Source of the DNA: Archaeoglobus sp. UBA230
GTDB taxonomy: Archaea; Halobacteriota; Archaeoglobi; Archaeoglobales; Archaeoglobaceae
DNA: 52,772 nt
Direction of reading: 5' to 3'
NCBI GenBank assembly: GCA_002507545.1
Contig: DAVR01000020.1
Span: 1-52,772, forward strand
The notes under the pieces are model-generated. The model did no database searches, was not told the DNA's origin, and worked only from the letters and a program-made list of their open reading frames with translations. A program made the translations under genes and the position numbers. This document shows, piece after piece, positions 2,680 through 50,051 of this stretch. Every line of letters begins with the position of its first letter. Within the stretch, counting starts at the first letter, position 1.

Positions 2680-2693
2680 GCTCTCACCAAAAA

Positions 2694-3422: not shown

Positions 3423-3424
3423 TT

Positions 3425-4205: not shown

Positions 4206-4268
4206 CGCATCACCTCCCTTAAGCAATCTAAGCAAAGATTCACAAAAAACCACAGATTTTGTTAGAGA

Positions 4269-4299: not shown

Positions 4300-4323
4300 A
4301 ACGTAACTGACACTTCATGGCAA

Positions 4324-4773: not shown

Positions 4774-4776
4774 CAA

Positions 4777-5064: not shown

Positions 5065-5297
5065 CTTTATTCTTCCACATATATCCTGCTAATGTTCACG
5101 AAAGCAGAATTTGTCTTCTAATTTTAGAAATACTAAGAAGGAGAAGTTTATGAAACGATTGCACTGCTATGATTTCGAACCGGTTAAAAAAAGAGATGTT
5201 CCATTTCTGTCCTGTTAGCAGAGAAACATTTGAGTTGATTTTAGGGAAAAGAAGGTTATTTAAAAATTATCATAGTGGTAAGATGAAGAAGACTCTA

Positions 5298-5330
5298 TAA
5301 TTAGTTAGGTTTGTTACGTCAAACACTATA
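5298..5330 (+). mobile_element. Solo 3'-end relic of the IS630-type element
   Basis: These 33 bases match 2385-2417 at about 30 positions, in the same orientation, and weaker similarity continues 15-20 bases upstream (AGATGA...TCT). They are the transposase 3' end and element end without the rest of the gene. The surrounding bases 5065-5357 hold no gene I can support. Confidence 0.6.
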
Positions 5331-5357
5331 ATTTGGGGTTCCCGCACGGCAAACTCC

Positions 5358-32541: not shown

Positions 32542-32643
32542 CGTCTCCAGTTGTGTTTCTGGGACACACTCTCCGTGAACTTCGACCCATGAAACTCAAG
32601 AACTACACTTAAGATTTTATATTTTGAGTCTAACTTTATTGGT

Positions 32644-33312: not shown

Positions 33313-33386
33313 TTGGATTCTATTGTACAAATTTAACAAATCGCTGACCATTAAAGACTCCGAGAATGCTAATCTCGTAACCTCTG

Positions 33387-33414
33387 CTGAAACCTCCTAG
33401 TCCTCAGGTTTCAG
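33387..33414. terminator. Hairpin between convergent genes
   Basis: A perfect 9-bp inverted repeat (CTGAAACCT / AGGTTTCAG, 10-base loop) lies between the convergent PRTase and P-type ATPase genes and is followed by T-rich sequence on the plus strand (33428-33440). A second smaller inverted repeat, CGAGA/TCTCG, is at 33361-33377. A bidirectional transcript end is the simplest reading; archaeal termination depends mainly on T tracts, so the hairpin may serve RNA stability. Confidence 0.5.
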
Positions 33415-33417
33415 AGT

Positions 33418-36033: not shown

Positions 36034-36269
36034 CTGTTAGGTTGCCTATTGGTCAATAATAATTTTGCCCCAAAAATAAGTCCTTAACCGATGTTGAACT
36101 TAGCGAATGGAGCAGATTGTGACCATCTGCGGGTTAGCAAGACGCACTTCGGAAAAATCTTGCAGAATTTACACTTTTAGATTTTTATTATACTTTTAAT
36201 TAAATATATGTAACCAACATTTTTATACTTTGTAGTTTCATTATTATCTACGCAAAAAGGTGGAATGAG
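36034..36269. promoter_or_regulatory. Divergent promoter region, ATPase / CBS protein
   Basis: This 236-base region must contain promoters for both genes. For the CBS gene, TTTTTATACTTT (about 36221-36232) is a TATA-like element and AAAGGTGG about 10 bases before the ATG is the ribosome binding site. An inverted repeat GCAGAT/ATCTGC spans 36112-36130. Confidence 0.5.
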
Positions 36270-37430
36270 ATGGATGTCAGAGAATTAAAGAAGGTCATTA
36301 GAGACGATTATGACGTTATAAGCGCAGGTGAAACACTTTCGAGGGTAATTTCAATGTTAGGCGAGTCCAAGCATGAAAGAGCCCTGTTGGTTGAAGAAAA
36401 TGACGAAATCATTGGGGTTGTAAGAGAAAAGGACTTAATCAGGGGTAGCCTAATGACGAACCCTGATGAAACGAAAATCAAGAAGTTCCTTGCGAAAACT
36501 GGAATCATTCGCCTTGACGAGCTAACGCCAGAGAAGGTGGCGAAAAGGTTTATAGAGGATTCCACGCCCTTTGTTCTTATAAAGCTCAACGGAGGATTTG
36601 GAGTTATTCACATCAACGAGTTTCTACAAAAAATAAAACAGGAATTTGAAAATGTTGAAGTCGGAGATGTTATGAATCCAGAAGTTATCACCGTGAAAAC
36701 GTACGATGGCGTATCCAAGGCTCTGGCCACTATGAGAAATCATGGTATCAGCAGAGTTGTTGTAGTTGATGATGAAAATAAAGTTGTCGGAATCATTACC
36801 GGCAAGGATATTGTAGATAGAGTTGTGTTTATAGGGAAAGACGATAGACTCGGACACCTGAGCATGAAAGAAAAAGAAAAAACGCTTTCAGTGATGGTTG
36901 AAGGTATAATGAGTCATCCGGTTATAACAGTTGAGAGGAATGACACGATTGCCAAAGCTATTGACCTGATGATCGAGAACGACATATCAAGCCTCGTGGT
37001 TGTAAAGGGCATCATTCCTGAGGGGATAGTGGTAAAGAAAGATTTTCTTGAATATTATTTAAAAGAGGCACTTCCAAAAGAGTATGAAGTGCAGATTATC
37101 GCGAAGGGCATAATTTTGGACGATTCTGAAATAGAAAAGCTCTTGGACGAATTAAACAAGTTTTTGAGGAAGCTCAAGAGCTCTCTTGGGAAAGTCCATT
37201 TATTTGTTTATGTGAAGAAGCTCAAATTGTACTATAGACGAATACCTCTCATTTACGTGAGGATGAGGTTGACAAGTGACCGTGGAGTTTTCTTTGTTAC
37301 TGGTGAAAGCTGGGGTGTTGGGTTTGCAGTTCATGCAACCTTGAATAAGCTTGAAAGGCAAGTAATAAAGGACAAAGAGCTTATGCTCGATAAGAGGGTT
37401 GTGCAGAAGTTTTACGAGGAAGTTCTTTGA
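36270..37430 (+). CDS. CBS-domain protein
   Basis: The 386-residue protein contains four CBS motifs in two tandem pairs within the first 275 residues; the second and third are clearest (DVMNPEVITVKTYDGVSKAL, GIMSHPVITVERNDTIAKAI). CBS pairs bind adenosyl nucleotides and report energy state. The C-terminal 110 residues (IIAKGIILDDSEIEKLLDEL, then a strand-rich end) are not a known catalytic domain to me, though they resemble a ribosome-hibernation-like or dsRNA-binding alpha-beta fold. It diverges from the P-type ATPase, which it could regulate; no direct evidence supports this. Confidence 0.83.
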   Translation: MDVRELKKVIRDDYDVISAGETLSRVISMLGESKHERALLVEENDEIIGVVREKDLIRGSLMTNPDETKIKKFLAKTGIIRLDELTPEKVAKRFIEDSTPFVLIKLNGGFGVIHINEFLQKIKQEFENVEVGDVMNPEVITVKTYDGVSKALATMRNHGISRVVVVDDENKVVGIITGKDIVDRVVFIGKDDRLGHLSMKEKEKTLSVMVEGIMSHPVITVERNDTIAKAIDLMIENDISSLVVVKGIIPEGIVVKKDFLEYYLKEALPKEYEVQIIAKGIILDDSEIEKLLDELNKFLRKLKSSLGKVHLFVYVKKLKLYYRRIPLIYVRMRLTSDRGVFFVTGESWGVGFAVHATLNKLERQVIKDKELMLDKRVVQKFYEEVL

Positions 37431-37480
37431 TAACCACAGCCCTGCAAATGAGATTTAAAAATAATAGAATGAGGTTGGCT

Positions 37481-39397
37481 TTATTTTGCCCCTTTAACAT
37501 CCACGATCCTCTCAACAACTGTCATATCTTCAAGAGTTGTGATATCTCCTATCTCTTCACCCTTCTCAATAGCAAGTAGAATCCTGCGCACTATCTTTCC
37601 ACTCCTCGTTTTTGGTAACTGTTCGACGAAGTAAATCTTTTCAGGAACAGCTATTGATCCTATTTCGTTTTTAACATGCGTTTTAAGATATTTTTCAAGT
37701 TCGACGTCCGGCTTGTAGCCAATCTTAAGGACAACAAATGCTACTGGTACCTCTCCTTTGATCTCGTGGGGTTTTCCAACAACGGCTGCCTCGCTTATAG
37801 CTTCATGAGATACAAGCGCACCCTCGATTTCAGCACTTCCAAGTCTATGCCCGCTGACCTTTAGAACTTCATCAATTCTCCCTATTATCCAGTAATACCC
37901 ATCTTCGTCTCTCCTTGCTCCATCTCCAGTATAGTAAATTCGTTTACCGTCTGATGTCCAGTATTGTTTGACGAATCTTCTTGGATCACCCCGTAGATCT
38001 CTGAACATTGCTGGCCACGGGTTCGTTATTACGAGTTCTCCGACATCTGCTGGATTTCCTTTCTCGTCGTGTATCTCTACCAACATTCCCGGGAAGGGCA
38101 GCGTTACAGAGCCGGGCTTGAGCTTTGTTATGCCGGGCAAGGGAGCTATTATGATCATTCCGGTTTCAGTCTGCCACCATGTGTCAATTACAGGGCAGCG
38201 CTCACTCCCTACATACTTGTGGTACCACTTCCAAGCTTCTGGATCTATCGTTTCGCCGACCGTTCCAAGTAGACGCAGCGAGGACAGATCGTGTTTCTCC
38301 AGCCATTCCTCGCCGAGCTTCATGAAGTAGCGTATTGCGGTGGGAGCAGTGTAAAAAATGGTCACGCCGTACTGCTCAATAATGTTCCACCACCTGTCCG
38401 GCTGTGGATAGTCTGGAGCACCCTCGTAAATTAGCACTGTCGCACCGTTGCTGAGCGGTCCATAGACAACATAGCTATGTCCAGTAATCCACCCTATGTC
38501 AGCAGTGCACCAGAATACGTCTCCATCTTTCAAATCGAATACCCACTTGGTTGTAATGTGGGTGCCAACGTTGTAGCCTCCGTGAATGTGAAGAACGCCT
38601 TTCGGCTTTCCGGTTGTTCCCGATGTATACAGTATGAACAACGGATGTTCGCTGTCAAGAGCTTTACATTCGCACTCATCTGCTAAGCCTTCTTCCAGTT
38701 CATGCCACCAGATATCCCTTCCATCGACCATATTCACATCGTTGCCGACTCTCTCGAGCACAACAACACTCTCAACGCTGCAAGCTTCCAGAGCTTTATC
38801 AACGATGCGCTTAGTTTCAATAACCTCGCCTCTCCTGTAGTAACCATCCATCGTAACGACAACTTTAGCGTCGGAATCGTTTATCCTCTCTCTCAGAGCT
38901 TTCGAGGAGAAACCTCCAAAAACCACGTTATGAATCGCGCCGATTCTAGCGCACGCAAGCATTGCGACAACAAGCTCCGGCACCATCCCCATGTAGATCG
39001 TGACTACATCCTTTTCCTCAACTCCAAGCGTCCTGAGAGCATTGGCAAACTTGCAGACTCTCTGGTAGAGTTCGCGGTAAGTGATCATCTCTTTTTCGTT
39101 TTCAGGTTCTCCCTGCCATATTATTGCTGTTTTATCCCCTTTTGATTCAATATGTCTATCCAAACAGTTGTAAGTTATGTTTATCTTTCCACCAACAAAC
39201 CATCTATAAAAAGGAGCGTTACCGCTATATATTATCTCTCTGTAGGGCTCAAACCACTCAATTTCATTCTTTGCAACTGAATCCCAAAATGTAAGATAGT
39301 CCAAAGCCTCCTCATAAATCCCTTCGCTAACCTGTGTACATCCTTTGGCTTCTTCTGTGGACTCATATAAATCATTTTCAGAAAATTTTTTTAACAT
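37481..39397 (-). CDS. acs: Acetyl-CoA synthetase (AMP-forming)
   Basis: This 638-residue enzyme activates acetate to acetyl-CoA through acetyl-AMP. The adenylate-forming motif YTSGTTGKPKG is intact, as are the acetate-pocket region with DTWWQTETG, YYTGDGARRDEDGYYWIIGR and the C-terminal catalytic lysine in PKTRSGKIVRR. Length is typical for AMP-forming acetyl-CoA synthetase. It stands alone, with the AT-rich upstream region (39398-39559) leading into the tRNA-Cys island. In Archaeoglobaceae it would allow acetate assimilation. Confidence 0.94.
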   Translation of the reverse strand: MLKKFSENDLYESTEEAKGCTQVSEGIYEEALDYLTFWDSVAKNEIEWFEPYREIIYSGNAPFYRWFVGGKINITYNCLDRHIESKGDKTAIIWQGEPENEKEMITYRELYQRVCKFANALRTLGVEEKDVVTIYMGMVPELVVAMLACARIGAIHNVVFGGFSSKALRERINDSDAKVVVTMDGYYRRGEVIETKRIVDKALEACSVESVVVLERVGNDVNMVDGRDIWWHELEEGLADECECKALDSEHPLFILYTSGTTGKPKGVLHIHGGYNVGTHITTKWVFDLKDGDVFWCTADIGWITGHSYVVYGPLSNGATVLIYEGAPDYPQPDRWWNIIEQYGVTIFYTAPTAIRYFMKLGEEWLEKHDLSSLRLLGTVGETIDPEAWKWYHKYVGSERCPVIDTWWQTETGMIIIAPLPGITKLKPGSVTLPFPGMLVEIHDEKGNPADVGELVITNPWPAMFRDLRGDPRRFVKQYWTSDGKRIYYTGDGARRDEDGYYWIIGRIDEVLKVSGHRLGSAEIEGALVSHEAISEAAVVGKPHEIKGEVPVAFVVLKIGYKPDVELEKYLKTHVKNEIGSIAVPEKIYFVEQLPKTRSGKIVRRILLAIEKGEEIGDITTLEDMTVVERIVDVKGAK

Positions 39398-39559
39398 TTT
39401 TTACACCCATATATTGTATACACTGTAACTTAATAAGTTTAACTGAAGTCAATATTTTAATAATATAAAAACTAAGTCTTTTTCCTCACACAATTTGCTC
39501 GTTTTCCTAAACGGAATCCAACTAAAATCATATGATAGATTAGAACCAGAGTAAAAGAG

Positions 39560-39580
39560 AGCCAGGGCCTGGATTCTAAC
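39560..39580 (-). repeat. Degenerate copy of the tRNA-Cys 3' end (candidate att site)
   Basis: AGCCAGGGCC-T-GGATT-CT-AAC here matches the complement of the tRNA-Cys 3' end at 49939-49959 in 18 of 21 positions, including the whole acceptor strand. Both copies face the same way, so they form a direct repeat bracketing about 10.4 kb. A tyrosine recombinase remnant begins 33 bases inside this copy. The match extends beyond the general T-loop consensus into the acceptor, which favours tRNA-Cys as the source. Confidence 0.6.
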
Positions 39581-39612
39581 AAAGGGTTGAGAGTCAGGGA
39601 GAAATCTTTTTA

Positions 39613-40105
39613 ATGAAACCAGCACAGTTGGCTACATGGATGATTCATCCTTACATAGTACTACGCTACATTCAAACATTACGAGTTATTCACAGATGGA
39701 AAAACAAGCCATTCAAGGAGTGGACTGAACAAGACCTTGAGGACATTCTTTTTGAGATCGAGAAGGAAGGGTATAAGCCACATACAATTAACGTAACGAA
39801 TTCAAAAAAGGTCTTCGAATGCTCTTCCGCTGGCTTCATTGAGAAAACTGGCTTGGCTTGAAAAGTTCTGAGAGGGGAGAGAAAAGACAAAAGAAAGCCA
39901 GACGTTCTCACAGAAGAAGTCAGTCGTATGATCGAAGCTGCTGTAAATGAGAGAGATCGAGCTATCATCGCTATCGGTTATGAAGCTGGATTGAGAATCG
40001 GAGAGCTTGCTTCGCTTATATGGGGAAATGTTATTTGGACTGAATGAGGAGCTAAGATCAAAGTTCACAGCAAAACTGGTGAAAGAGTCGTTCCAATAGT
40101 TATGG
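39613..40105 (+). pseudogene. Broken tyrosine recombinase (integrase)
   Basis: The first frame (39613-39858) is the N-terminal core-binding SAM-like domain (VLRYIQTLRVIHRWKNKPF, EQDLEDILFEIEKEGY). After an in-frame stop, reading continues with KPDVLTEEVSRMIEAAVNER, then AIGYEAGLRIGELASLIWGN, which holds the first catalytic arginine (GLRIGEL), and after another stop SKTGERVVPIVMAA. The remaining catalytic His-Arg and Tyr residues are missing because the sequence ends at about 40105 in another gene. It is a dead integrase beside a candidate att site, consistent with an element that can no longer excise. Confidence 0.75.
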
Positions 40106-40316
40106 CAGCTACGAGTTCATCAAATTCTTTTAAAGCTTTAACAAGCTCTTTATCGAGGTCAGATTCTAAAAGCCTATCGTTATGGCAACATGGACAATAA
40201 ACTTCCGCAAAGTCTCCGTAATCATCTACCTTCTCTTCAAATCCGTCGTAATCGTAGTATTCGTGGCAGCACTTTGTATAGTCAAAATGAAAACACTCTC
40301 CACAGAATAAAACCAT
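40065..40316 (-). CDS. Cys-rich zinc-ribbon-like small protein, possibly truncated
   Basis: From MVLFCGECFHFDYTKCCHEY, likely at the ATG ending at 40316, this is an 83-residue protein with two cysteine pairs that look like zinc knuckles: CGEC with a following CC, and CPCC in the middle (VYCPCCHNDRLLESD). The last 14 or so residues are encoded by DNA that reads on the other strand as integrase, so the natural C-terminus was probably lost when the two sequences joined near 40105. Function unknown; a small metal-binding nucleic-acid or redox partner is plausible. Confidence 0.5.
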   Translation of the reverse strand: MVLFCGECFHFDYTKCCHEYYDYDGFEEKVDDYGDFAEVYCPCCHNDRLLESDLDKELVKALKEFDELVAAITIGTTLSPVLL

Positions 40317-40459
40317 GCATTCACCCCCCAAAGGATATCGCAGAGTGGCTGAAGCCTAACTTCGTCAGAGAGCAGTTCGATTAAGTCAAATTTCATGTTT
40401 CCAATGTTAGGAAAAATCCTCTCTTTTAAGTAATTTAGTAGCTCTGGACCGTCCCGTCA

Positions 40460-40930
40460 TCTATTACAGATCTATCAAGCAAGTTGGGTATTCCTGCATC
40501 AACTGTACAATATCATGTTAACAAGCTGATGGAGCTTGACATAGTCAGAATTGCACAAAAGAAAGTTGGAAAGAGGATGAGAGATATAAAAATGTACGTT
40601 TACGACAAAGAGAGCATAGTATTTCTCTCATCAATGGAAAAACACGAGTTTGAACATTTATTAAGGACATTTGTTCTTCGGAGATTGAAGAAGGGGGCAC
40701 CGATAGCTGTTTTACTAATTTTTGCGATTGGCTCAATTCTATCAATCATCGGTAGCTGGATGCTCAAAGGAGAGATTAAACGCAGGATTGGATTCTTTTA
40801 CGGGGACGTGGTGGGTAGATCAGTTGGAATGCTTGAAATGAGTGTATTATTAGTATTCCTCGGTGTTTTCTTTCTTTTGGGAGTAGTGAGTTCGTTCTTG
40901 CTCCTTTTGTTTATAATTAAAAGGACTTAA
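40460..40930 (+). pseudogene. N-terminally truncated membrane-tethered winged-helix regulator
   Basis: The frame contains the second half of a helix-turn-helix (SITDLSSKLGIPASTVQYHV, then NKLMELDIVRIAQKK) and two hydrophobic segments at the C-terminus (APIAVLLIFAIGSILSI, then VLLVFLGVFFLLGVV). A stop lies just upstream of 40460 and there is no room for the first helices, so the N-terminus is lost; translation from the TTG at 40484 would give a defective domain. It is the same general architecture as the regulator at 4324. The site lies inside the tRNA-Cys island, next to the integrase scar. Confidence 0.6.
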
Positions 40931-40961
40931 TTTTTAATTTTATATAATGTTATTATGAGCC

Positions 40962-41165
40962 TTATAAGTTCCCTGCCCCAGCTCCCTTAAATCTTTTGAG
41001 AGTGTCTTCGAACACTTCCTCTCCTACCACCTGCTTCATTGACATTAGTAAGAGCTCTGTAACTCCGGCGGGATCGCCACAGCAAACTTGAACAGTTTGT
41101 TTGCCATCTTTCCATCTTCTCAAGAGCTCAGGCAGATTAACTACTGCAGAGTACTTTATGTCCAT
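40962..41165 (-). CDS. Small hypothetical protein at the end of the island operon
   Basis: This 67-residue frame (VCCGDPAGVTELLLMSMKQV in the middle) has no family I recognise. It follows the methyltransferase gene on the same strand after a 102-base AT-rich gap with a long T-rich run, which may end the main transcript, so it could have its own promoter. The sequence is protein-like (balanced residues, amphipathic helices), but it may also be a fragment. Confidence 0.4.
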   Translation of the reverse strand: MDIKYSAVVNLPELLRRWKDGKQTVQVCCGDPAGVTELLLMSMKQVVGEEVFEDTLKRFKGAGAGNL

Positions 41166-41267
41166 GCTCAGGCTGTTAAACCTCTCCGGATTTTCTATAA
41201 TTCTTTGAATTTTTTAATCAAAATATATTTTTTATTTATCTAAATTTTAATTAATTTTTTGCATATT

Positions 41268-41927
41268 TTATTTTTTAAAAGCACCAAATAGAAACTTATG
41301 TTTATGCAAACCTTTTTCACCGTGTTCTTCCATTTCTTCGATTTCTCTTACTGTTATTGAGGTTAGATCGTTAAAATAGCATAGTAGTTCGTCTTTCGTG
41401 AAATAGTGCGAACAATGTCCATCTGACTCAAAAAATGTATTCTCTTCAACCTGTACACCCTCACCAAAGGAGGGATCGTTTACGGAAAAGACATTGACAA
41501 CTAAGATCCCAGATTTCTTTAGAGAGCCCTTAAGACCATTTATCAACTTCATCCTATCACTTTCGAGAAACAAATGTAGTAGATTGTGAGCAAAGATTCC
41601 CTCGTATTTTTTATCAGTTGGTAGAACTTGCAAAACGTCACCGATGATGTATTTTATGTTCGAATTGCATTCTTCCGCATTTTTCTTAGCTATTTCTATA
41701 GCAGTTGTCGAAACATCTATACCCGTTACTGAAAACCCCAGCTTTGCGAAATAAAGGCAGTTTCTTCCGTATCCGCAACCTGGGGCTAATATTGTTTTTA
41801 CACTGTATCGTTTAAACACTTCAGCAGCTAATTTTGCTGATAGAGATTGTTCTTTTCCCCACACTTCCCCTTCGTTTTTAAACCTGACATTCCAGTATTC
41901 TTCCGCATTATACACCCCAATCACCAC
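41268..41927 (-). CDS. Class I SAM-dependent methyltransferase
   Basis: The 219-residue protein has motif I LAPGCGYGRN (48-57) and the acidic residue binding the ribose of SAM in VTGIDVS (Asp71), with a YEGIFAHNLLHLF segment further on; it belongs to the small-molecule tellurite-resistance/TehB-like group by size and pattern. The start is within a GTG-GTG run overlapping the upstream dehydratase gene by about seven bases, so the exact start is uncertain (41927, 41924 or 41915). It is the last gene of the biosynthetic operon and could methylate the pathway product or an intermediate. Confidence 0.8.
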   Translation of the reverse strand: MVIGVYNAEEYWNVRFKNEGEVWGKEQSLSAKLAAEVFKRYSVKTILAPGCGYGRNCLYFAKLGFSVTGIDVSTTAIEIAKKNAEECNSNIKYIIGDVLQVLPTDKKYEGIFAHNLLHLFLESDRMKLINGLKGSLKKSGILVVNVFSVNDPSFGEGVQVEENTFFESDGHCSHYFTKDELLCYFNDLTSITVREIEEMEEHGEKGLHKHKFLFGAFKK

Positions 41928-43153
41928 GGAGACTTGATTTCACCGTAAATTGCGGAGTATGCAACAGTGGCTGCAGAAGCAAGAAAAGCTTCAGAATTTC
42001 TGCCACCAAGCCTGCCCAAATAATTCCTGTTCGTCGTCGTGATAACCCTCTCGCCATCGGCTATTATCCCACCGCTTTTCGATCCAGCACACAAGCTACA
42101 CGAAGGATGAGTTATTATTGCACCTGCTTCGATTAGTATTTCAATGATCTCCTCTTTTAGAGCCTCCATATAGATCCTTCTCGTCGGTGGTGTCACTATG
42201 AGTCTGACATCCGGATGTACTTCGTTCCCCTCTAAGATCTCAGCAGCAATTCTTAAATCCTCCAAACCTGTAGTGCAGGAACCTATAAACGCCTCATCTA
42301 TTTTAGTACCTTCCACTTCTCTCACCGGCTTCACATTATCAACAGAATGCGGACAAGCTATCATCGGCTCAATTTCTTCTGCACAGTATTGGTAAATTTT
42401 CTCGTACCCGTCTCCATCTCCTCTAATTCTTTTGATCTCCTTTCTCGTTTTGCCGGAGAGATACTCAAGTGTCACCTTATCGGGCTCTACCATACCAGTC
42501 TTCGCTCCAGCTTCAACAGCCATGTTGCACAACGTGAACCTGCCATCCATAGACATCTCTTTTACCGTGGATCCAGAGAACTCCATAGCCTTGTAGGTTG
42601 CTCCATCCGCACCTATATCTCCTATGATTTTTAGAATCAAGTCCTTCGCATAAACACCGTCAGGTAGCTTTCCGTTTATCTCAAATTTTAGTGTCTGAGG
42701 AACCTTCAGCCAGATTTTTCCTCTACCCAGTACGGCAGCCATATCTGTATAACCGACACCAGTAGCAAAAGCTCCTAAGGCTCCAGCTGTACAGGTGTGA
42801 GAGTCCGTACCAATCACGATTTCCCCTGGGACAATCAGACCCATTTCTGGCATGACTCGATGACTCACTCCCTCACCAATTACCAGTTTTATTCCGTATC
42901 TTTCAGCAAAACTACGCATTTGTTTCATACTTTCCGATTCTTCCACCGATGCTGGCGGGATTTCATGATCTGCTATAAGCAAAATTTTTGATGGATCCCA
43001 AACCTCAGTGAAACCCATATTTTTAAATTGGCTGAAACAGTGCGGTGCGAAGTAGTCGTGAATCATGGCTAGATCGACTGAAACCGTGATTATTTCTCCG
43101 GGCTTAACTTCCCTCTCAACGTGATTCGCAAGTATCTTCTGGACGATATTCAT
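41921..43153 (-). CDS. LeuC/HacA-like dehydratase large subunit, copy 2
   Basis: The 410-residue aconitase-family large subunit aligns with 3-isopropylmalate dehydratase and homoaconitase. Iron-sulfur ligands are present in GSCTTG and in SCSLCAG, but the usual SCTNGR reads SCTTG with one residue missing before LEDL. It shares a nearly identical 66-codon tract with its paralogue at 43641 (see repeats) yet differs elsewhere. The gene starts inside the leuD-like stop (ATGA), so one small subunit may serve two large ones. The true substrate is uncertain. Confidence 0.8.
   Translation of the reverse strand: MNIVQKILANHVEREVKPGEIITVSVDLAMIHDYFAPHCFSQFKNMGFTEVWDPSKILLIADHEIPPASVEESESMKQMRSFAERYGIKLVIGEGVSHRVMPEMGLIVPGEIVIGTDSHTCTAGALGAFATGVGYTDMAAVLGRGKIWLKVPQTLKFEINGKLPDGVYAKDLILKIIGDIGADGATYKAMEFSGSTVKEMSMDGRFTLCNMAVEAGAKTGMVEPDKVTLEYLSGKTRKEIKRIRGDGDGYEKIYQYCAEEIEPMIACPHSVDNVKPVREVEGTKIDEAFIGSCTTGLEDLRIAAEILEGNEVHPDVRLIVTPPTRRIYMEALKEEIIEILIEAGAIITHPSCSLCAGSKSGGIIADGERVITTTNRNYLGRLGGRNSEAFLASAATVAYSAIYGEIKSPW
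42521..42718 (-). repeat. Gene-conversion-like tract, copy A
   Basis: These 198 bases match 44256-44453 at about 188 positions by eye, while the flanking parts of the two large-subunit genes are much more divergent. The tract covers the coding region for KLPDGVYAKDLILKIIGD and neighbours. Sharp edges suggest gene conversion after duplication. Confidence 0.7.
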
Positions 43154-43644
43154 GAATCTCGCCTCATGTACTCAACCAGTCCACCACATCTGAAAATTTC
43201 CATTATGAATTCTGGGATCTTTGTAGCTTCGTGTATTCTACCAGTTCTTTTATTGAGTATCTTTCCGTTTTCGAGGTCTATTTCTACAATATCTCCTTCT
43301 CCAATTTCATCATAAAGTGTGCTACATTCCACAACTGGCAAACCCAAGTTTATTGCATTTCTGTAGAATATTCTCGCAAATGATTTTGCAACTATTGCTG
43401 CAACACCCAGCTCTTTCAGAACCGCTGGTGCCTGCTCTCTGCTACTCCCGCATCCAAAGTTCCTTCCAGCTACTATTATGTCTCCCTTTTTAACCTCGTT
43501 GCTAAAGTTGGGACGAAGCGGTTCGAATGCATGCTTACTCATGGATTTTACATCGGGAAGAAGCAGATATTGTGTCGGAAGAATGACGTCTGTGTCTATG
43601 TTATCTCCAAAAACCCAACACCTACCTACTATTCTCACGATCAC
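43150..43644 (-). CDS. LeuD/HacB-like dehydratase small subunit
   Basis: The 164-residue small subunit has the swivel-domain motifs of aconitase-family dehydratases: VFGDNIDTDVILPTQYLL at the start and RNFGCGSSREQAPAVLKELG, which binds substrate carboxylates. YLLLPD at the substrate-specifying loop is not the YLR of typical isopropylmalate dehydratases; the loop suggests a variant substrate such as homoaconitate or dimethylmalate, a tentative point. It overlaps both flanking large-subunit genes by four bases, and so is the shared partner of the two. Confidence 0.83.
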   Translation of the reverse strand: MIVRIVGRCWVFGDNIDTDVILPTQYLLLPDVKSMSKHAFEPLRPNFSNEVKKGDIIVAGRNFGCGSSREQAPAVLKELGVAAIVAKSFARIFYRNAINLGLPVVECSTLYDEIGEGDIVEIDLENGKILNKRTGRIHEATKIPEFIMEIFRCGGLVEYMRRDS

Positions 43645-44894
43645 ACCTCCTTTGAGTAGTCACTTATAACCCCATTTATTGCTGAATAAGCAACGGTTGC
43701 CGGAGAAGCTACATATATTTCAGAATTTGGATTACCAGCTCTCCCCCTGAAGTTCCTGCTGCCAGTGCTTATCAACCTTTCACCATCGCCTAAAACCCCC
43801 TGACAAGCTCCCCAGCATGTGCTGCAGTTCGGATTCATGACTATTGCCCCGCTTTCAAGGAACGTTTCTATCAAACCTTCTTTTAACGCATCTCTGAACA
43901 CGTTTCTCGAAGCTGGAGAGATTATCAGTCTAACATCTGGATGTACTTTGTTTCCTTCGAGAATTTCAGCGGCAATTCTCAGATCTTCGATTCTGCCGTT
44001 AGTGCAAGAGCCTATAAATGCTTCATGAATTTTTAAACCCTCTACTTCTCTGACTGGTTTTACGTTGTCAAGTGTGTGCGGGCAAGCTATCATTGGCTCG
44101 ATTTCGCTTGCATCATAATAGTAGACTTTCTCATATTCTGCATCGCTATCACTCCTAAGTAGCCTGTATCCTCGCCCGCTCCTAAGCTTTGATAAGAACT
44201 CAATGATCTTTTCATCTGGTTCGATTATACCAGTCTTTGCTCCTGCTTCAACCGCCATGTTGCACAACGTGAACCTACTATCCATCGACATCTCTTTTAC
44301 CGTGGATCCAGAGAACTCCATAGCCTTGTAGGTTGCTCCGTCTGCCCCTATATCTCCTATGATTTTTAGAATCAAGTCCTTCGCATAAACACCATCTGGT
44401 AATTTTCCGTTTATCTCAAATTTTAGTGTCTGAGGAACCTTCAGCCAGATTTTATCTCTCACCCATATTGCTGCCATGTCCGTCGAGCCTATGCCAGTGG
44501 CAAATGCTCCTAAGGCTCCCAAAGTACAGGTGTGTGAATCTGCTCCGACAATAACAGTCCCCGGTACAGCATGATGCTCTATGAGAAGTTGATGGCAAAC
44601 ACCCTCTCCATCGTACAGCTTTATGCTGTTGTATTTGGCGAACTCCCTCATCTTTTTATGAACTTCCGCTGTTTGAACGGAATTTGAAGGAACATTGTGA
44701 TCTATGACGAACACGATTTTATCGGGGCTTTTCACCTTTACTCCTCCCATTTTTCTGAATATGTCGATTGTTATGTGAGTTGTCGCATCATTGCTCATCA
44801 CGAGATCTGGACCAACGACTACTATTTCGTTTGGCTTTACTTCTTCTCTTCTGCTTGCATGTGCAAGTATTTTTTCTGCTATCGTCATTCCCAT
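43641..44894 (-). CDS. LeuC/HacA-like dehydratase large subunit, copy 1
   Basis: From the ATG ending at 44894, behind GGTGA, this is a 417-residue aconitase-family subunit. The iron-sulfur ligands are canonical: GSCTNGR and NCSTCWGAC. Motifs for substrate and cluster binding include GADSHTCTLGALGAFATGIG. It is the more standard of the two large subunits here and is followed directly by the small subunit, as in archaeal IPMI/HACN operons. No isopropylmalate synthase or dehydrogenase gene accompanies it, which argues against a plain leucine pathway. Confidence 0.83.
   Translation of the reverse strand: MGMTIAEKILAHASRREEVKPNEIVVVGPDLVMSNDATTHITIDIFRKMGGVKVKSPDKIVFVIDHNVPSNSVQTAEVHKKMREFAKYNSIKLYDGEGVCHQLLIEHHAVPGTVIVGADSHTCTLGALGAFATGIGSTDMAAIWVRDKIWLKVPQTLKFEINGKLPDGVYAKDLILKIIGDIGADGATYKAMEFSGSTVKEMSMDSRFTLCNMAVEAGAKTGIIEPDEKIIEFLSKLRSGRGYRLLRSDSDAEYEKVYYYDASEIEPMIACPHTLDNVKPVREVEGLKIHEAFIGSCTNGRIEDLRIAAEILEGNKVHPDVRLIISPASRNVFRDALKEGLIETFLESGAIVMNPNCSTCWGACQGVLGDGERLISTGSRNFRGRAGNPNSEIYVASPATVAYSAINGVISDYSKEV
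44256..44453 (-). repeat. Gene-conversion-like tract, copy B
   Basis: This is the counterpart of 42521-42718 in the upstream large-subunit gene: 198 bases, about 10 mismatches by eye, no gaps. Most differences sit in two short patches, and long runs are identical. Confidence 0.7.
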
Positions 44895-44958
44895 GTTGGT
44901 CACCTGCATAAGTTTGGTAATATATTTTTTAGCTCCTCAAATCGAACCATCTTAGTTC

Positions 44959-46134
44959 TCAGTAAACTGGCACATATATAACTTCACCATTTTCAACTAT
45001 TTTTCTTATGCCGTACACGCCTTCGAAGAGCTCTCCACTCAAAAAATACTCTTTTAATGCTGACAAGTATCTTTTATCCACAGGGAAATTCATAGCAAAT
45101 TGGAGAACATCTTTTAATCTCAACTCGCCATTTTCCCGTGCAAGTTTCCAATAGTCAAGTAAGATAGGATATCGTAATTTATAAGCCCCAGATATTGTTG
45201 CTGTATTGAACTGCGGATTGGTAAATGCCCAATAGCCTATGCCATATTTTTTACACAGTCTCGATACCTTTTCCTCTAACACGTAATGGTCTTTTTCAGA
45301 TGTGGTTATTCTTGCTCCAAGCTTTCGCCCATTATCAAAGTACATCTTTTCGTATAGAGGTATTAGGTATGAATATTTCTCGCTTGTGGCAAGCACTTTT
45401 TTAAGTCTATTCCAGATAAATCCCGATAGCTCAAGAGGTGCCATTATAACATTGCCTATACACGCTTCAGCGGCGTCTTTGATTATGCTATCTATATCTT
45501 TATCCGTTATGTATGGGAAGTATGGAGTTATATGGAGATACGTATCAACCCCGATTTCAGACAGCTTTTGCAATGTAAGGATCCTTTCTTTTTGACGATT
45601 TTGGGAATGAATAAACTTACTTCTTGGAACAAACGGCTCCACAAGTTTTGTAAAATTGTCATCGTAGGAAGTTACAGTCATACCAACCCCAATGAGCTCT
45701 CTTTCAGCTAGTTTCTCTATAATGTCCATATCATTCAGTATTAAGGGCGACTTTGTTTCTATAAAACATGGGAAGTTATATCCATAACATATCTCAAGCA
45801 ATCTTCTAGTTAACCTGTGCTTCATCTCTATTGGTTGGTATGTGTCTGAGATGTTGCCGATAACAATGACGCTTTTCTTTTTTCTTTGCTCATATTTAAT
45901 TATCTCCTTCTCGAAAATCTCAGGGGCATTCTTTTTCACATATATCTCTTTTGAAAAAAGATTTGGAGTTGAACGCATGTAATAGTGAGTACAAGCAGCA
46001 TAACAGTATATACAACCATGGGTACAACCACGATAAATATTCGCCGTTAATCTGAACGGTAGGTACCTCATGGCAAAGAATCCATCTCTCATCCTGCTGA
46101 TTATGGATTTAGCGTTTATTTCAACTATTTTCAT
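44959..46134 (-). CDS. SPL-type radical SAM protein (COG1533-like)
   Basis: Starting at the ATG ending at 46134, just after AGAGGTGAT, gives 391 residues; a longer frame back to 46257 lies inside the terpene cyclase gene and is not protein-like. The cluster motif is RGCTHGCIYC (Cys37, 41, 44), followed by YAACTHYYM, the layout of spore-photoproduct-lyase-like radical SAM proteins. ITSYDD and LHITPYFPYITD are typical barrel elements. It overlaps the cyclase gene by 14 bases, so it belongs to the operon. The reaction is unknown: a radical step on a terpenoid intermediate is possible, but no known member does exactly this to my knowledge. Confidence 0.8.
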   Translation of the reverse strand: MKIVEINAKSIISRMRDGFFAMRYLPFRLTANIYRGCTHGCIYCYAACTHYYMRSTPNLFSKEIYVKKNAPEIFEKEIIKYEQRKKKSVIVIGNISDTYQPIEMKHRLTRRLLEICYGYNFPCFIETKSPLILNDMDIIEKLAERELIGVGMTVTSYDDNFTKLVEPFVPRSKFIHSQNRQKERILTLQKLSEIGVDTYLHITPYFPYITDKDIDSIIKDAAEACIGNVIMAPLELSGFIWNRLKKVLATSEKYSYLIPLYEKMYFDNGRKLGARITTSEKDHYVLEEKVSRLCKKYGIGYWAFTNPQFNTATISGAYKLRYPILLDYWKLARENGELRLKDVLQFAMNFPVDKRYLSALKEYFLSGELFEGVYGIRKIVENGEVIYVPVY

Positions 46135-47878
46135 AGTTATCACCTCTTGCAATTCTATACCATTTGGAGAGTGCCCATAATGGGAATATTGCTGAATATA
46201 TCTCATACTTTCCTGGATCAATTGCTGCTGCAGCGTAGGATGATGGGAAACTTCCATCTTCTTTTTGTAGTTTTAAGAGATACCCAATCCCGCTAATAAC
46301 TGTTTCCGAAAACGGATCAATACCACAGTCCAATAAAGCTAGTATACACCACGATGTATGTTCTGCTGTACTCTCTCCCTTAATCGGGTGGGGCGAATAA
46401 TAGCTGGAATAGTGCTCTCCCCAGCCACCATCATCATTCTGCATGCTTACGAGCCAGTGAACTGCTTTTTTAACATAGCTTTTATTCATATTTTCGCCTA
46501 TGGCTTTTAACGCTTGCAAAACTTGTGTTGTACCATAGATGTATGCTAGCCCCCAACGCCCCCACCATCCACCAAAATCCAACTGGTCGTCTTTTAACCA
46601 TTTAATGGCTTTTTCAACTTGCTCATCTGAAGTACCATATCCTACTTCTCCCAAAAATTGTAAAACGTGTGCTGTGACATCCGCTGTTGAGGGATCCTTT
46701 AATTCATGCCCGTAATCTTCGTGATAAGGTGGCATATATCCTCTCGCTTTTCGGGATTGATTTTTATCAAATGCACCCCATCCCCCATCATCGTTTTGCA
46801 TCTTGAGAAGGTATGTAATAGCATTTTCAACATATTTTCTTCCATCGTTTCCTAATGCCTTTAAAACGGCAAGAGATGCTAAGGCAGTGTCGTCGTTATC
46901 TGGAAGGTTTACATTATACTCACTAAACGCCCACACATTTTTTGAAGTACGTGCTGACAAAAGGTAATTTAACGCAACATTTATTGGGGCATGTTTGTAG
47001 CTCATACCACTTTCAAGCAGTGCCATAACTGACAGAGCAGTATCCCAAACCTTAAGTCTAAATCTGCTCAACAAACCCTCATCATCTACAAGTCCATCCA
47101 AGAAATTGAATGCTTTTTGTATTTTTGGATTGGTTATGTCTTCACCACACTCACATAAAGCGTAAATAGCACCCATTGTTGGTAGTGCAGTATCGAACCA
47201 ACTGCCATTGGCTAGCTGAGTCTCAATAATCTTTTTCTTTAATTTACTGATAATTCGTTTATCAAAATAATTTAGTTTCTTTTTATTTTTGATTAGTGAA
47301 ACAATTTGAAGAGGCGGTAAAGCATTTCTCGTCCATGCGGATGGAAACAGATAGATACTCCAATGGAATAACTTAGGACATTTCATGTGCAGTTTTCCCA
47401 GCAATCTGCCCAAACTCTCAGGAATGCACGAAAAGAGGGGCGGAGGTGAAAATATTTTTACATCTCTTTTTATCGACAGAAACATTTGTGTATAGGGGTC
47501 AAGCCATTTGTTTCCACTATATTTTTCTAACCAACTTTTAGCTCTTTTAAGTGCCTCCTTATCCGCATATTGCTCCAGAGCTACTACAGACAGCAAAGTG
47601 TTCCTGTAATTTCCCTCAGATTTCATCATGATGTTGCCCCAACTTCCATCATCGTTTTGATGCTGTAAAATCCACTCAATAATTTTATTCTTCTTTCCGT
47701 ATTTTAAGTCATATTTTTCCTCTAAATAATCGATGAGTAGGAGATATGCAGCATTACTCCACATATGAAATTCGACTTTTCCATAGAAGGAGCCTTCCTT
47801 TTTTTGATATGATAAAAGATTTGTTTTAGCACGTTTAATAGCAGTTCGTACTTTCTTTACTAACTCATTTTCATCCAT
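46121..47878 (-). CDS. Class II terpene cyclase, squalene-hopene-cyclase-like
   Basis: The 585-residue protein has the double alpha-barrel repeats of squalene-hopene and related cyclases. QW-type repeats occur at 74-80 (QNDDGSW), 221-227, 361-368 (QNDDGGWG), 431-443, 480-487 and 538-544. The protonating acid motif DXDDTA is intact as D327-N-D329-D-T-A, and FGGWWGRWGLAYIYGTTQVL and DPSTADVTAHVLQFLG match conserved SHC blocks. It is a little shorter than bacterial SHC (about 630). It probably cyclises a polyprenyl chain at the membrane surface. Upstream, UbiA ends four bases before. SHC-family genes are rare in archaea, so lateral acquisition is likely. Confidence 0.87.
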   Translation of the reverse strand: MDENELVKKVRTAIKRAKTNLLSYQKKEGSFYGKVEFHMWSNAAYLLLIDYLEEKYDLKYGKKNKIIEWILQHQNDDGSWGNIMMKSEGNYRNTLLSVVALEQYADKEALKRAKSWLEKYSGNKWLDPYTQMFLSIKRDVKIFSPPPLFSCIPESLGRLLGKLHMKCPKLFHWSIYLFPSAWTRNALPPLQIVSLIKNKKKLNYFDKRIISKLKKKIIETQLANGSWFDTALPTMGAIYALCECGEDITNPKIQKAFNFLDGLVDDEGLLSRFRLKVWDTALSVMALLESGMSYKHAPINVALNYLLSARTSKNVWAFSEYNVNLPDNDDTALASLAVLKALGNDGRKYVENAITYLLKMQNDDGGWGAFDKNQSRKARGYMPPYHEDYGHELKDPSTADVTAHVLQFLGEVGYGTSDEQVEKAIKWLKDDQLDFGGWWGRWGLAYIYGTTQVLQALKAIGENMNKSYVKKAVHWLVSMQNDDGGWGEHYSSYYSPHPIKGESTAEHTSWCILALLDCGIDPFSETVISGIGYLLKLQKEDGSFPSSYAAAAIDPGKYEIYSAIFPLWALSKWYRIARGDNYENS

Positions 47879-47882
47879 ATTT

Positions 47883-48854
47883 TCACCTCACGATAAGCAT
47901 ATAGCATGAAGCCGCCATTAAACTCCATATAGCGGTTGTTCCAGCCATTGTGAATATCCCACATTTGCTCTCTATTCTCTCGTATTGTTCCTTTCTGGAA
48001 TATATGTAGTGATAGAAAATTCCCATGATAACGCATGCCAAGACGATCCACAGCAATAAATAGATAAGTTGTAAAACGTTTGAATAGGACATTTTTATAA
48101 AATAACAAACCATCATCAAAATAATTCCCAACGGCATGAGTATTATGGCACCGTTTAAGCATACTTTGTATCCATACTTTGTCGCAAAAGTATTAACAAA
48201 ACCAACATCGTCTTTCCAATCCCATGTTTCACCTACTAAAAATAATCCGAATAGATTTATGCCTAAACCAACAGTATAAAATAACAATGACACAATATCA
48301 CTCATCGAAAAATCAGTATAATGTGCTACTATGAAGAATCCGAACGGCAAGAGAATTACAAGTTGTATCCCTCTTGAAAAGTCCCCAATTGCGATGTACT
48401 TTTTCAATCTTAATGGTTCATTAGAATACGCAAAAGCGAAGAATATCCCTATAATCCAAAGAACTAAGATTACAAACCCAACAGTAAAAGCCAAATAGAT
48501 TATGAAAAAAGTACCTAAAAGCACCATAAACACTATTCCGATGATTAAATTCTGTTTGCCAATAATGTCTACCGATTTTGGGAGATACGACTTGAATTTT
48601 TTGTCCAGTTCATAATCTCCCAAAACATTGGCCCAGACAGACACGTAATGGGCACATATGGTTATTATCAGCCCAATTAAAATCTGTTGGTATGGAAAGA
48701 TGTCACGGGAAATACAACTCAATCCTAAAAATACGCCTGTAATAAAGGGCAACATATCTGCTATGAAATACTCAAACCTCCCAGCTACAAATATGGCAGC
48801 TAAAAACGATTTTAATGATTTGTTCTTAATTCCAAAAATCTTGTTATGAAACAT
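47883..48854 (-). CDS. UbiA-family prenyltransferase
   Basis: The 323-residue integral membrane protein has eight or nine hydrophobic segments and both UbiA aspartate motifs: N76-x3-D80-x3-D84 (VLGDYELD) and the second one at D212, D215, D216 (GETWDWKDDVGFV). YSNEPLRLKK is another family marker. Enzymes of this type attach isoprenoid diphosphates to an acceptor in the membrane, and some cyclise terpenes. AAGGAGGA just before the ATG is a strong ribosome binding site, placed inside the end of the radical SAM gene. Together with the cyclase it points to a modified isoprenoid; the acceptor is unknown. Confidence 0.85.
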   Translation of the reverse strand: MFHNKIFGIKNKSLKSFLAAIFVAGRFEYFIADMLPFITGVFLGLSCISRDIFPYQQILIGLIITICAHYVSVWANVLGDYELDKKFKSYLPKSVDIIGKQNLIIGIVFMVLLGTFFIIYLAFTVGFVILVLWIIGIFFAFAYSNEPLRLKKYIAIGDFSRGIQLVILLPFGFFIVAHYTDFSMSDIVSLLFYTVGLGINLFGLFLVGETWDWKDDVGFVNTFATKYGYKVCLNGAIILMPLGIILMMVCYFIKMSYSNVLQLIYLLLWIVLACVIMGIFYHYIYSRKEQYERIESKCGIFTMAGTTAIWSLMAASCYMLIVR

Positions 48855-49435
48855 TTATATTCCTCCTTTATCTCTACAGCTCTCATAAACTTGTCAAAGG
48901 TACCGGGAACATTTACTATCCTTTCGTAGATTTCCTTGGTAATAGAATCCATTTTTACTACCAAAGATGCTTCGTGCTCATACAAGGTTTCACACAGTTC
49001 AAACGAGTCCACTCCATGAATTCGTTGAGATAGCGTATCATCGCCTAACGCAATTCCGTTTGTAACTACAACTGGATACATTCCTTTATCCGAAAGGTGT
49101 TCAACAAATTCAATCAGATATCTGTACATTAACGGCTCACCATCACCGCAAATCAAAGCAACTTCTGCACCAAGCTCTCTAGCCTCATCGACAACCCTCT
49201 TGTACTCGTCTACAGTAAGCTCATTCTTTGATCTGACCCTATCACTACCCGCATAACAGTATACACACCTAAGATTACAAATTTTCGGTGTGCTTAACCC
49301 TACAGCCCTTATTTTTGGATTTTCTGGATTCCATTCTCGCCAGAACTTCTCAATTTCATCTCTTGAATGATGATCCAAACCTCTCACACCTATTTTTGTT
49401 CGACCTTCAATGCTGTTATCAGATGTCATTGACAT
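48812..49435 (-). CDS. Short radical SAM protein, C-terminus possibly lost
   Basis: The 207-residue protein has the cluster motif at Cys53, 57 and 60 (CNLRCVYC) and LICGDGEPLMYRY, then PVVVTNGIAL, all typical of the first part of the radical SAM barrel. Related enzymes usually continue well beyond 300 residues with extra domains. Here the last 20 residues are encoded by DNA that also contains the UbiA ribosome binding site, so the natural C-terminus was probably lost. It starts about 22 bases from the TATA box that heads the operon; the second ATG at 49429 gives a better spacing. Confidence 0.65.
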   Translation of the reverse strand: MSMTSDNSIEGRTKIGVRGLDHHSRDEIEKFWREWNPENPKIRAVGLSTPKICNLRCVYCYAGSDRVRSKNELTVDEYKRVVDEARELGAEVALICGDGEPLMYRYLIEFVEHLSDKGMYPVVVTNGIALGDDTLSQRIHGVDSFELCETLYEHEASLVVKMDSITKEIYERIVNVPGTFDKFMRAVEIKEEYKCFITRFLELRTNH

Positions 49436-49452
49436 TATGTCTCAAAGTATCA

Positions 49453-49461
49453 GTATATAAG
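49453..49461 (-). promoter_or_regulatory. Promoter of the island biosynthetic operon
   Basis: CTTATATAC on the minus strand is a good archaeal TATA box, 22-28 bases before the two candidate start codons of the radical SAM gene. Downstream of it, seven more genes run to 41268 with overlaps or small gaps and no other obvious promoter, so most of the island is likely transcribed from here. Confidence 0.6.
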
Positions 49462-49585
49462 AATTTCTTACATGTCCTTTTTTTCCTATGAAAAAAGAAA
49501 ATTTTAAAAAACATAATCAAATAAGCATTGTAAGAGTTAAAAGCCCAGTCACGTTTGGTGCATAGCTAACAAGAGCTTTCCACTC

Positions 49586-49810
49586 CTAGTCTCTAAACTT
49601 GTACTTCTTAACCTCAATCCATTTTTCAATAATCTCCCTTAGCTCCTCATTCGTTATCTCGCAACCATCTGCTGATCTCACAGAATAACCCTTCCCAGCG
49701 TGATGGATTGGCAATCTTATCTTCCCGCCAGATGATTTCGATTTTCCTGTTGTGCAAGTGATAAAGGCAGGAACTGGATTTAAGCTGATTCCAGTAAATA
49801 GGAGCGGACA
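49586..49810 (-). pseudogene. Decayed gene fragment at the tRNA-proximal end of the island
   Basis: A 74-codon frame with no start codon reads as a protein remnant: FITCTTGKSKSSGGKIRLPI, then HHAGKGYSVRSADGCEITNE and ELREIIEKWIEVKKYKF. The composition is protein-like and the frame is bounded by stops, so it is probably the 3' part of a gene cut off at its 5' side. I do not recognise the family. The remaining bases of the 49436-49938 gap show nothing else. Confidence 0.4.
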
Positions 49811-49938
49811 TTAAATACATAAGTAATTCTACCAGAATTTTAATCTTGCAACAAAATAAAAACCATAACAACTTTAGTCTACCAGAAAGTAAAAAATAGG
49901 AAAGAGAATTTGGAGCTGGCTCTACATCTTTTCCTTTA

Positions 49939-50009
49939 AGCCAGGGCCCGGATTTGAACCGGGGTCAGCGGATCTGCAGTCCGCCGCATAGCCCCTCTGC
50001 CACCCTGGC
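49939..50009 (-). tRNA. tRNA-Cys (GCA)
   Basis: The minus strand folds as a tRNA: acceptor GCCAGGG/CCCTGGC, anticodon stem GCGGA/TCCGC with loop CTGCAGA (anticodon GCA), and T arm CCCGG-TTCAAAT-CCGGG. Discriminator T; CCA is not encoded. There is no intron. Its 3' end is the apparent attachment site of the island to its left. Confidence 0.93.
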
Positions 50010-50051
50010 TTGTGTGATACCTTTCGGTAGATTTGTATTTAAACCTTGCTG

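Follow-up and report, generated by a model that had tools for sequence, protein, structure and literature searches.

The tRNA-Cys island and its gene content

The window analysed here, the whole 52,772-nucleotide stretch of contig DAVR01000020.1 from Archaeoglobus sp. UBA230, contains a decayed integrative element lying between an intact tRNA-Cys gene and a direct copy of the 3′ end of that gene. The eight minus-strand open reading frames (ORFs) inside it include a cassette of three, encoding a UbiA-family prenyltransferase, a class II cyclase related to squalene-hopene cyclase (SHC) and a radical S-adenosylmethionine (SAM) enzyme, which is a rare, selected and apparently mobile unit that looks suited to making a cyclised isoprenoid. 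The main features are listed below, where labels beginning with G and L denote genomes and loci used for comparison.

39560..39580, plus strand: attR-like direct repeat of the tRNA-Cys 3′ end, 18 of 21 bases (pattern search and shuffles)
39613..40111, plus strand: decayed tyrosine recombinase, N-terminal part (93% nucleotide identity to L143)
41268..41927, minus strand: class I SAM methyltransferase (profile matches)
41921..43153, minus strand: LeuC-like large subunit 2 (NF001614, 542 bits, cut-off 385)
43150..43644, minus strand: LeuD-like small subunit (TIGR02087, 208 bits, cut-off 109; nearest solved chain 3vba)
43641..44909, minus strand: LeuC-like large subunit 1, LeuC1 (NF001614, 581 bits; 98% identity over residues 1–221 in G010)
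44959..46134, minus strand: PA0069/Rv2578c-like radical SAM enzyme with CxxxCxxC (profile matches)
46121..47878, minus strand: SHC-like class II cyclase with DNDDTA (profile matches, structure model)
47883..48854, minus strand: UbiA-family prenyltransferase with both aspartate motifs (PF01040)
48812..49435, minus strand: truncated radical SAM ORF, own sequence ending near 48869
49938..50010, minus strand: intact tRNA-Cys (gca), the integration target (tRNA prediction in the window)

The original prediction placed a degenerate tRNA-Cys end at 39560 with a broken tyrosine recombinase just inside it, and both observations were borne out. Apart from the tRNA gene itself, the window matched the tRNA-Cys 3′ end at three or fewer mismatches only at 39560–39580 (18/21), and none of 100 shuffles gave such a match. 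The copy has the place and orientation of the far-border direct repeat of a tRNA-targeted integrative element. The recombinase remnant adjoins this copy on the island side, has stop codons interrupting its reading frames and corresponds to residues 39–200 of an intact 417-residue integrase at 77% amino acid identity. The intact integrase (L143:8406-9659, from G022, a genome of another genus) matched Phage_integrase with 85.5 bits, and a tRNA-Cys end copy with two mismatches to the window tRNA begins 77 bases upstream of it. Over 39560–40111 the window was 93–94% identical in nucleotide sequence to L143, with about 120 bases absent from the window. At L152 (G204, a further genus) the first 15 bases of the core occur at 4026 and an integrase homologue follows at 4242, while the stretch fetched around a third homologue (L153, G026) contained no tRNA-Cys end copy at five or fewer mismatches. 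A recombinase is found beside an att copy as a remnant in the window, intact in L143 and as a homologue in L152. Since integrase homologues follow tRNA-Cys copies in two other genera, the repeat is a trait of a tRNA-Cys integrase family and not a chance match to an unrelated tRNA-like sequence. The island at tRNA-Cys is genuine, and is better supported than when it was proposed.

The same element was found at the same tRNA in two other hosts. One is G010, a genome of another genus, as its helicase shows: identity to the tRNA-side helicase of the window is 62%, compared to 79–81% in five genomes of the same genus as the window. Its own tRNA-Cys is followed by the right end of the window island at 96% identity over 699 columns including the tRNA (50009–49312), and the match runs to the end of the contig, inside the first radical SAM gene. 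In G025, of a further genus, the tRNA-Cys and the adjacent 118 bases (49820–50011) were 89% identical. Past this right end, the G025 locus (L151:1535-5844) carries a methyltransferase-like gene and a set of ABC-transporter genes read as a metal or cobalamin uptake system.

Twenty helicase loci were fetched from relatives, some of which end early at contig ends. The tRNA-Cys gene was visible in two of them (G005 and G007, both of the same genus) together with the same right-hand genes, and no island gene was found within approximately 17 kb of it in either genome, LeuC and methyltransferase matches below 30% identity not being counted. The acetyl-CoA-synthetase-like gene of the left flank was likewise absent beside tRNA-Cys in these two genomes. 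On the left side, G002 matched window positions 33382–39470 at 92% and then diverged, 90 bases ahead of the att copy. No exact joined empty site was found among the 20 helicase loci or in the left flank of G002. A DNA search across relatives scored the best five candidates per genome, and non-matches in that search carry no weight. The left flank itself (30959–39470) is collinear with a short G002 contig at 92–94%, with the break at 39470. Its acetyl-CoA-synthetase-like gene was 94% identical in G002 and otherwise reached at most 65% identity among the eight genomes of the genus that were searched, so the left flank is variable as well.

Mosaic structure of the eight-gene block

The eight ORFs had been described as one operon behind a single promoter. 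Eight co-oriented and closely packed minus-strand ORFs do exist, but the block is interrupted by two joints, one near 48869 and one at 44947–44959, and its first ORF is a 5′ fragment. The Pfam Radical_SAM match of this ORF stops at residue 189 of 207, at profile position 135 of 166, and its final 19 codons read through the ribosome-site and start region of UbiA. In BLAST, two radical SAM proteins (407 and 426 residues long) resemble it over a stretch that stops at residues 137–139. The remainder of the gene was not found in G010. Two short features of the region are also noted.

49454..49460, minus strand: TATA-like TTATATA, candidate promoter element upstream of the truncated radical SAM ORF, read from the sequence
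44900..44947, minus strand: 3′ end of a Sua5/YrdC-like gene (16 codons with the stop) that formerly lay upstream of LeuC1

The 48 bases at 44900–44947 encode VRFEELKNILPNLCR and a stop codon, and match the final part of a Sua5/YrdC-like open frame situated ahead of LeuC1 in G010. A 52-residue version of this frame (L147) matched positions 158–200 of the 202 positions of TIGR00057 (E 5.8e-6, partial and below the full-length cut-off), and the frame also gave a partial match, below cut-off, to PF01300 (E 7.5e-4). The match of LeuC1 in G010 likewise terminates at 44947. The G010 pieces lie at contig ends and one of them (C22, 79 bases) resembles a chimeric join, so that the evidence for the joint between cassette and Leu block is weaker from G010 than from the L013 contig described below. 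The G+C content was 0.371 for the cassette, 0.427 for the Leu block and 0.432–0.437 for the host. The eight ORFs are thus a patchwork in which a truncated radical SAM gene, the UbiA-SHC-radical SAM cassette and the LeuC-LeuD-LeuC-methyltransferase block, the last with a separate history, have been brought together.

Both LeuC-like proteins pass NF001614 and TIGR02086, and the LeuD-like protein passes TIGR02087, as isopropylmalate-dehydratase-type subunits do. The Leu block is co-oriented with the cassette, starts 49 bases downstream and is perhaps co-transcribed with it, and nothing links it to the same pathway. The two LeuC paralogues share a tract at 42510–42805 and 44245–44540 (codons ~140–215) in which dS is approximately 0.3 and dN near 0, while elsewhere dS is 1.3 or saturated, which marks it as a tract of gene conversion between paralogues of the same operon.

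The UbiA-SHC-radical SAM cassette

A search for SHC relatives in genome contigs, from which 80 loci were kept, revealed a best relative at 83% identity on contig L013 (MTLP01000013.1, titled Thermococcus sp. JdFR-02), the other 79 loci giving 26–36% over their best segments. L013 aligned with window positions 48869–44959 at 79% nucleotide identity over 3917 columns. This alignment extends from the UbiA ribosome site to the stop of the radical SAM gene; the rest of the window did not align, and the flanks of L013 differ, with two HhH-GPD DNA-glycosylase-like genes on one side. Because the match is confined in this way, the unit is UbiA-SHC-radical SAM (44959–48854). Amino acid identities between the window and L013 were ~82% for UbiA, ~83% for SHC and ~86% for the radical SAM enzyme, with dN/dS values of 0.07, 0.06 and 0.04 respectively, and dS values of 1.4–1.8 indicate an old split. 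The cassette has been kept intact by purifying selection. A UbiA relative was present at three of the 80 SHC loci (L013, L014 and L017), and the same three had a relative of the cassette radical SAM enzyme (E 1e-4); none held only one of the two within the flanks of up to 10 kb that were covered, many contigs being shorter.

The ends of L013 have G+C contents of 0.467 and 0.514, while the stretch at 1114–6600, comprising the cassette and the next 1.6 kb, has 0.33–0.36. For the JdFR-02 bin, Table 5 of PMC5369317 gives a G+C content of 38.4%. A protein encoded beside the cassette on L013 had matches in two of 94 genomes of the bin's family, its own genome included. The contig may be misbinned; either way the cassette sits in an AT-rich stretch between ends richer in G+C. 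Two contigs of the JdFR-02 Thermococcus bin (L164 and L167, G060) have a higher G+C content, resemble Archaeoglobus more than the remainder of the bin in their tetranucleotide patterns, and gave no blastn match to the fetched Archaeoglobaceae stretches; contamination of the bin is a suspicion only.

The prenyltransferase scored 50.0 bits against PF01040, above the gathering cut-off of 34.2, and N76/D80/D84 and D212/D216, the two aspartate motifs, were invariant in four sequences. In these respects it resembles the UbiA/chlorophyll synthase prenyltransferases, but it differs from them in that the nearest solved chain, chlorophyll a synthase, was reached at E 5e-5 and no curated NCBIfam cut-off was reached. 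A match to the archaeal prenyltransferase model PRK12884 was weak (E 7e-6). Conservation places the start of the cassette radical SAM gene at 46134 and not at 46257, where the longest ORF begins. The enzyme shares the Radical_SAM Pfam domain and the CxxxCxxC motif with the PA0069/Rv2578c family, to which it scored 172.5 bits, short of the cut-off of 360. The label 'SPL-type' given to it earlier is loose, PA0069/Rv2578c being the best family: at E 0.001 its sole Pfam match was Radical_SAM, with no match to the SPL Pfam model, and TIGR04070 was not among its NCBIfam matches.

The SHC-like cyclase

The DNDDTA motif, corresponding to the catalytic DXDD, was invariant in four SHC sequences, and D327, D329, D330 and the QW repeat at Q361–W367 varied little across 28 sequences. 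An AlphaFold2 model built with the 28 sequences had a mean pLDDT of 85.9. Comparison of the model with the Alicyclobacillus acidocaldarius enzyme 2sqc using VIA-align gave a Z score of 46.1 over 547 residues at 2.4 Å and 29% identity, and the model predicts the full class II two-domain fold. The cyclase therefore shares the DXDD motif, the Q..DGGW repeats and the two-domain fold with SHC of A. acidocaldarius (2sqc/1gsz), but differs in its low identity, its divergent N-terminal third, its long separate branch and a score for squalene-hopene cyclase (TIGR01507) of 262.9 bits compared to a cut-off of 431.1.

Equivalents of A. acidocaldarius F365, D374, D376, D377, D447, H451, W489 and Y495 were kept in the alignment, the numbering being by hand count, and we take these residues to act in early ring closure. 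The F601–L607 loop, including F601 and F605, which we presume to act in late ring closure, is altered and three residues shorter. These differences suggest fewer rings or another substrate.

In a tree of 82 rows (the window, the 80 loci and L122) the two archaeal cyclases were on a shared branch, separated from the rest by 3.0 changes per column. The archaeal rows, the Lachnospiraceae pair L014 and L017 and L122 formed a supported set of five, which carries a long-branch warning, and the tree is taken to show only that the archaeal rows are distant from the rest. A precedent for the proposed chemistry is MstE, a class II cyclase described in PMC9401909 as cyclising geranylgeranyl dihydroxybenzoate. 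The two would share a mode of action, a class II reaction started by a proton on a prenylated aromatic. MstE differs in being a single-domain protein of 367 residues, of which 302–310 align to the window SHC at 19–20% identity.

Related clusters and distribution

The two bacterial loci with all three cassette homologues are from uncharacterised clusters of the Lachnospiraceae, in Mobilisporobacter senegalensis (L014, 394-17191) and Kineothrix alysoides (L017, 415-17200), which have closely matching gene sets and hold the homologues within ~11 kb. By Pfam and NCBIfam, L017 encodes a radical SAM protein with a long N-terminus, a methyltransferase, a TrpD-like enzyme, two U32-family proteins, two B12 radical SAM proteins, a further radical SAM protein and UbiA, one of the U32-family proteins being UbiU-like below cut-off. 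Genes of this kind point to an aromatic acceptor and to hydroxylation that does not depend on oxygen, and both clusters look like an oxygen-free meroterpenoid pathway. They differ from the window in their many more genes, in identities of 22–34% and in their SHC, which is read as occupying a single ORF together with a permease-like C-terminus, ahead of an ABC-ATPase-like gene.

The cyclase is rare. At E 1e-30 the SHC profile identified two genomes in a sample of 392 from the phylum, namely the window's own and a second whose protein is different and probably exported. At E 1e-20 it identified one of 94 genomes in the family of the L013 bin, which is the genome of L013 itself. With the UbiA profile at E 1e-12, two of 392 genomes from the order that includes Kineothrix were identified, both already found. 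Within the genus of the window, a full-length SHC was present in one of eight searched genomes. Some SHC match was obtained in 25 of 60 genomes, and in the 59 other than the window's own no match covered more than 158 of 585 residues, the matching sequences being repeat proteins of other lengths. A host operon conserved in the same order among most relatives, the outcome that would have overturned the idea of an island, was rejected on this basis. The second SHC-profile protein of the phylum (L169:7654-9804, from a genome read as haloarchaeal) has a twin-arginine-type N-terminus and an NWDDTA sequence resembling DWDDTA, and is a possible exported class II cyclase. It was set aside as unrelated on account of the Tat-like signal and the lack of a neighbouring UbiA or radical SAM gene among ORFs of at least 180 residues. 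Viral carriage of SHC was also rejected: 109 viral contig stretches matched the pattern and none encodes a relative.

Interpretation of the cassette

The best overall explanation, which we consider about as probable as all others together, is a decayed tRNA-Cys element with secondarily joined cargo, in which a UbiA-SHC-radical SAM cassette serves the synthesis of a cyclised prenylated compound. An integrative element of a family with a VirD4-like coupling ATPase gene inserted at tRNA-Cys and then decayed, as the att copy, the integrase remnant and the scraps on either side show, and the two joints show that cargo in its interior was joined secondarily. The membrane-bound UbiA protein would transfer a polyprenyl chain to an acceptor, the DXDD aspartate of the cyclase would protonate the far double bond and zip the chain into rings, and the radical SAM enzyme would act, without oxygen, on the acceptor or on the ring skeleton. 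A meroterpenoid or a modified lipid, prenylated, cyclised and made anaerobically, would result. The main role left to the truncated radical SAM gene upstream is probably that of supplying a promoter. The earlier reading of the genes as terpenoid-type is thus supported for the UbiA-SHC-radical SAM part and not for the eight genes as a single pathway. More tentatively, and with less than even confidence, the cassette can be viewed as a mobile three-gene pathway that gives hyperthermophilic archaea an oxygen-free route to a cyclised prenylated compound, whether meroterpenoid or ring-bearing lipid, and that has a common origin with the uncharacterised natural-product cluster of anaerobic Lachnospiraceae.

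Several observations weigh against this explanation. The structure model of UbiA was too poor for use (pLDDT 50.6). A solitary orthologue of the radical SAM enzyme at 83% amino acid identity (L149:9725-10897) is present in the closed same-genus genome G005, which contains no full-length SHC, and the 19.9 kb around it gave no UbiA or SHC match; the radical SAM enzyme can therefore have a role of its own. The L013 contig is short (8.1 kb) and perhaps misbinned, and its UbiA ends 26 codons early through an apparent frameshift or deletion. The homology to the Lachnospiraceae proteins is distant (UbiA 22–25%, SHC 34%, radical SAM 31%) and their SHC is linked to the archaeal SHC by long branches only. 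None of the eight ORFs is TrpD-like or UbiU-like, the rest of the genome not having been searched for these.

Alternatively, the cyclase may make an ordinary triterpene from squalene, such as a hopene-like membrane lipid, with UbiA serving another step, for example in quinone or lipid synthesis. Squalene-hopene cyclase is indeed the nearest solved relative (Z 46) and the eight A. acidocaldarius positions named above are kept. Against this stand the low hopene-cyclase score, the changed and shortened F601/F605 loop and the observation that UbiA and the radical SAM enzyme accompany SHC jointly or not at all across the 80 loci, and we regard it as rather unlikely.

A role of the cassette in modifying membrane lipids of archaea or menaquinone, with UbiA adding an extra chain that SHC cyclises to give ring-bearing ether lipids or quinones, is also unlikely. 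Geranylgeranyl ether lipids are present in archaea, and UbiA has the weak archaeal prenyltransferase match to PRK12884. Distant relatives of the same trio occur, however, in Lachnospiraceae, which to our knowledge lack geranylgeranyl ether lipids, and a full-length SHC in a single genome of the eight searched in the genus would be odd for a core lipid step.

A single pathway of all eight genes, in which the isomerase pair and the methyltransferase make or finish the acceptor, would agree with the co-orientation and tight packing of the ORFs, but was rejected as the principal explanation because of the joints at ~48869 and 44947–44959. The first gene is truncated, the cassette occurs on L013 without the other five genes (on a contig of only 8.1 kb), a Sua5-like gene tail precedes LeuC1 in both the window and G010, and the cassette and Leu block differ in G+C content, all of which make such a pathway improbable. 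That the whole region is decaying, as the broken element genes and first radical SAM gene would allow, and the cassette is a passenger without current function in its host is very improbable given the intact frames and the dN/dS values of 0.04–0.07 against L013, although these are averaged over a long past.

No account of a UbiA-SHC-radical SAM cassette or of an Archaeoglobus tRNA-Cys element was recognised in searches of open-licence papers. Class II triterpene cyclases have been described mainly in bacteria and eukaryotes and stand behind the hopanoid and sterol biomarkers, and the synthesis of ring-shaped isoprenoids is hardly known from archaea. If a cassette for a cyclised prenylated compound is the correct reading, it would be the first pathway of the class II triterpene-cyclase type in the Archaeoglobaceae, and cyclic terpenoid biomarkers might then have an archaeal source that has gone unrecognised. 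An intact, selected SHC accompanied by UbiA and a radical SAM enzyme in a hyperthermophilic archaeon points to unexplored chemistry and suggests caution in the use of such biomarkers. The locus also shows how cargo that resembles one operon, and yet is a patchwork, can accumulate in an integrative element that has died beside a tRNA gene.

Remains of the integrative element

Eight proteins of more intact relatives of the element were searched against the window. Scraps of five were identified, on both sides of the cargo, while the VWA-like, p177 and p223 proteins left none in the window. The scraps, together with the flank at the right end, are as follows.

40080..40453, minus strand: two element gene scraps, the p174 N-terminus and the p333 C-terminus (intact copies in L144 and L145)
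40965..41210, minus strand: C-terminal scrap read as a MoxR-like AAA protein (58% amino acid identity over 83 residues; intact copy L146:8198-9331)
49550..49744, minus strand: HATPase C-terminal scrap (78% amino acid identity to residues 739–803 of the L145 protein)
49716..49799, plus strand: VirD4/TrwB-like coupling ATPase C-terminal scrap (28 residues, 64%, E 9.5e-7)
49820..49937, no strand assigned: right-end element flank, kept at tRNA-Cys in two further genera

The intact coupling ATPase (L144:334-2826) matched TrwB_AAD_bind and TraG-D_C in Pfam, and the HATPase was also recognised by Pfam on its intact copy; the intact MoxR-like, p333 and p174-type proteins gave no Pfam match. A TAG codon that breaks the HATPase frame is common to the window and G010, while L144, L145 and L146 have tryptophan at this position. 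This shared disabling codon is most simply explained if the island had decayed before the two copies diverged. Among the scraps at 40484–40930 on the plus strand is a 148-residue ORF, read as a winged-helix N-terminus with membrane helices, for which neither Pfam nor NCBIfam gave a match. A second and more intact copy of the element family is present in the window's own genome on contig C24 (L145:579-5895), with genes for the HATPase, p177, p333, p174 and a thioredoxin-like protein.

Integration at tRNA genes is known from archaeal viruses and plasmids. In the account of ArcVen-P3 of A. veneficus in PMC4158269, the element is integrated at tRNA-Ser, with one att repeat overlapping the tRNA gene and a second beside the integrase, as in the window. 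The window element differs from ArcVen-P3 as described there in its use of tRNA-Cys, its decay, its metabolic cargo and its scrap of a VirD4-like ATPase gene.

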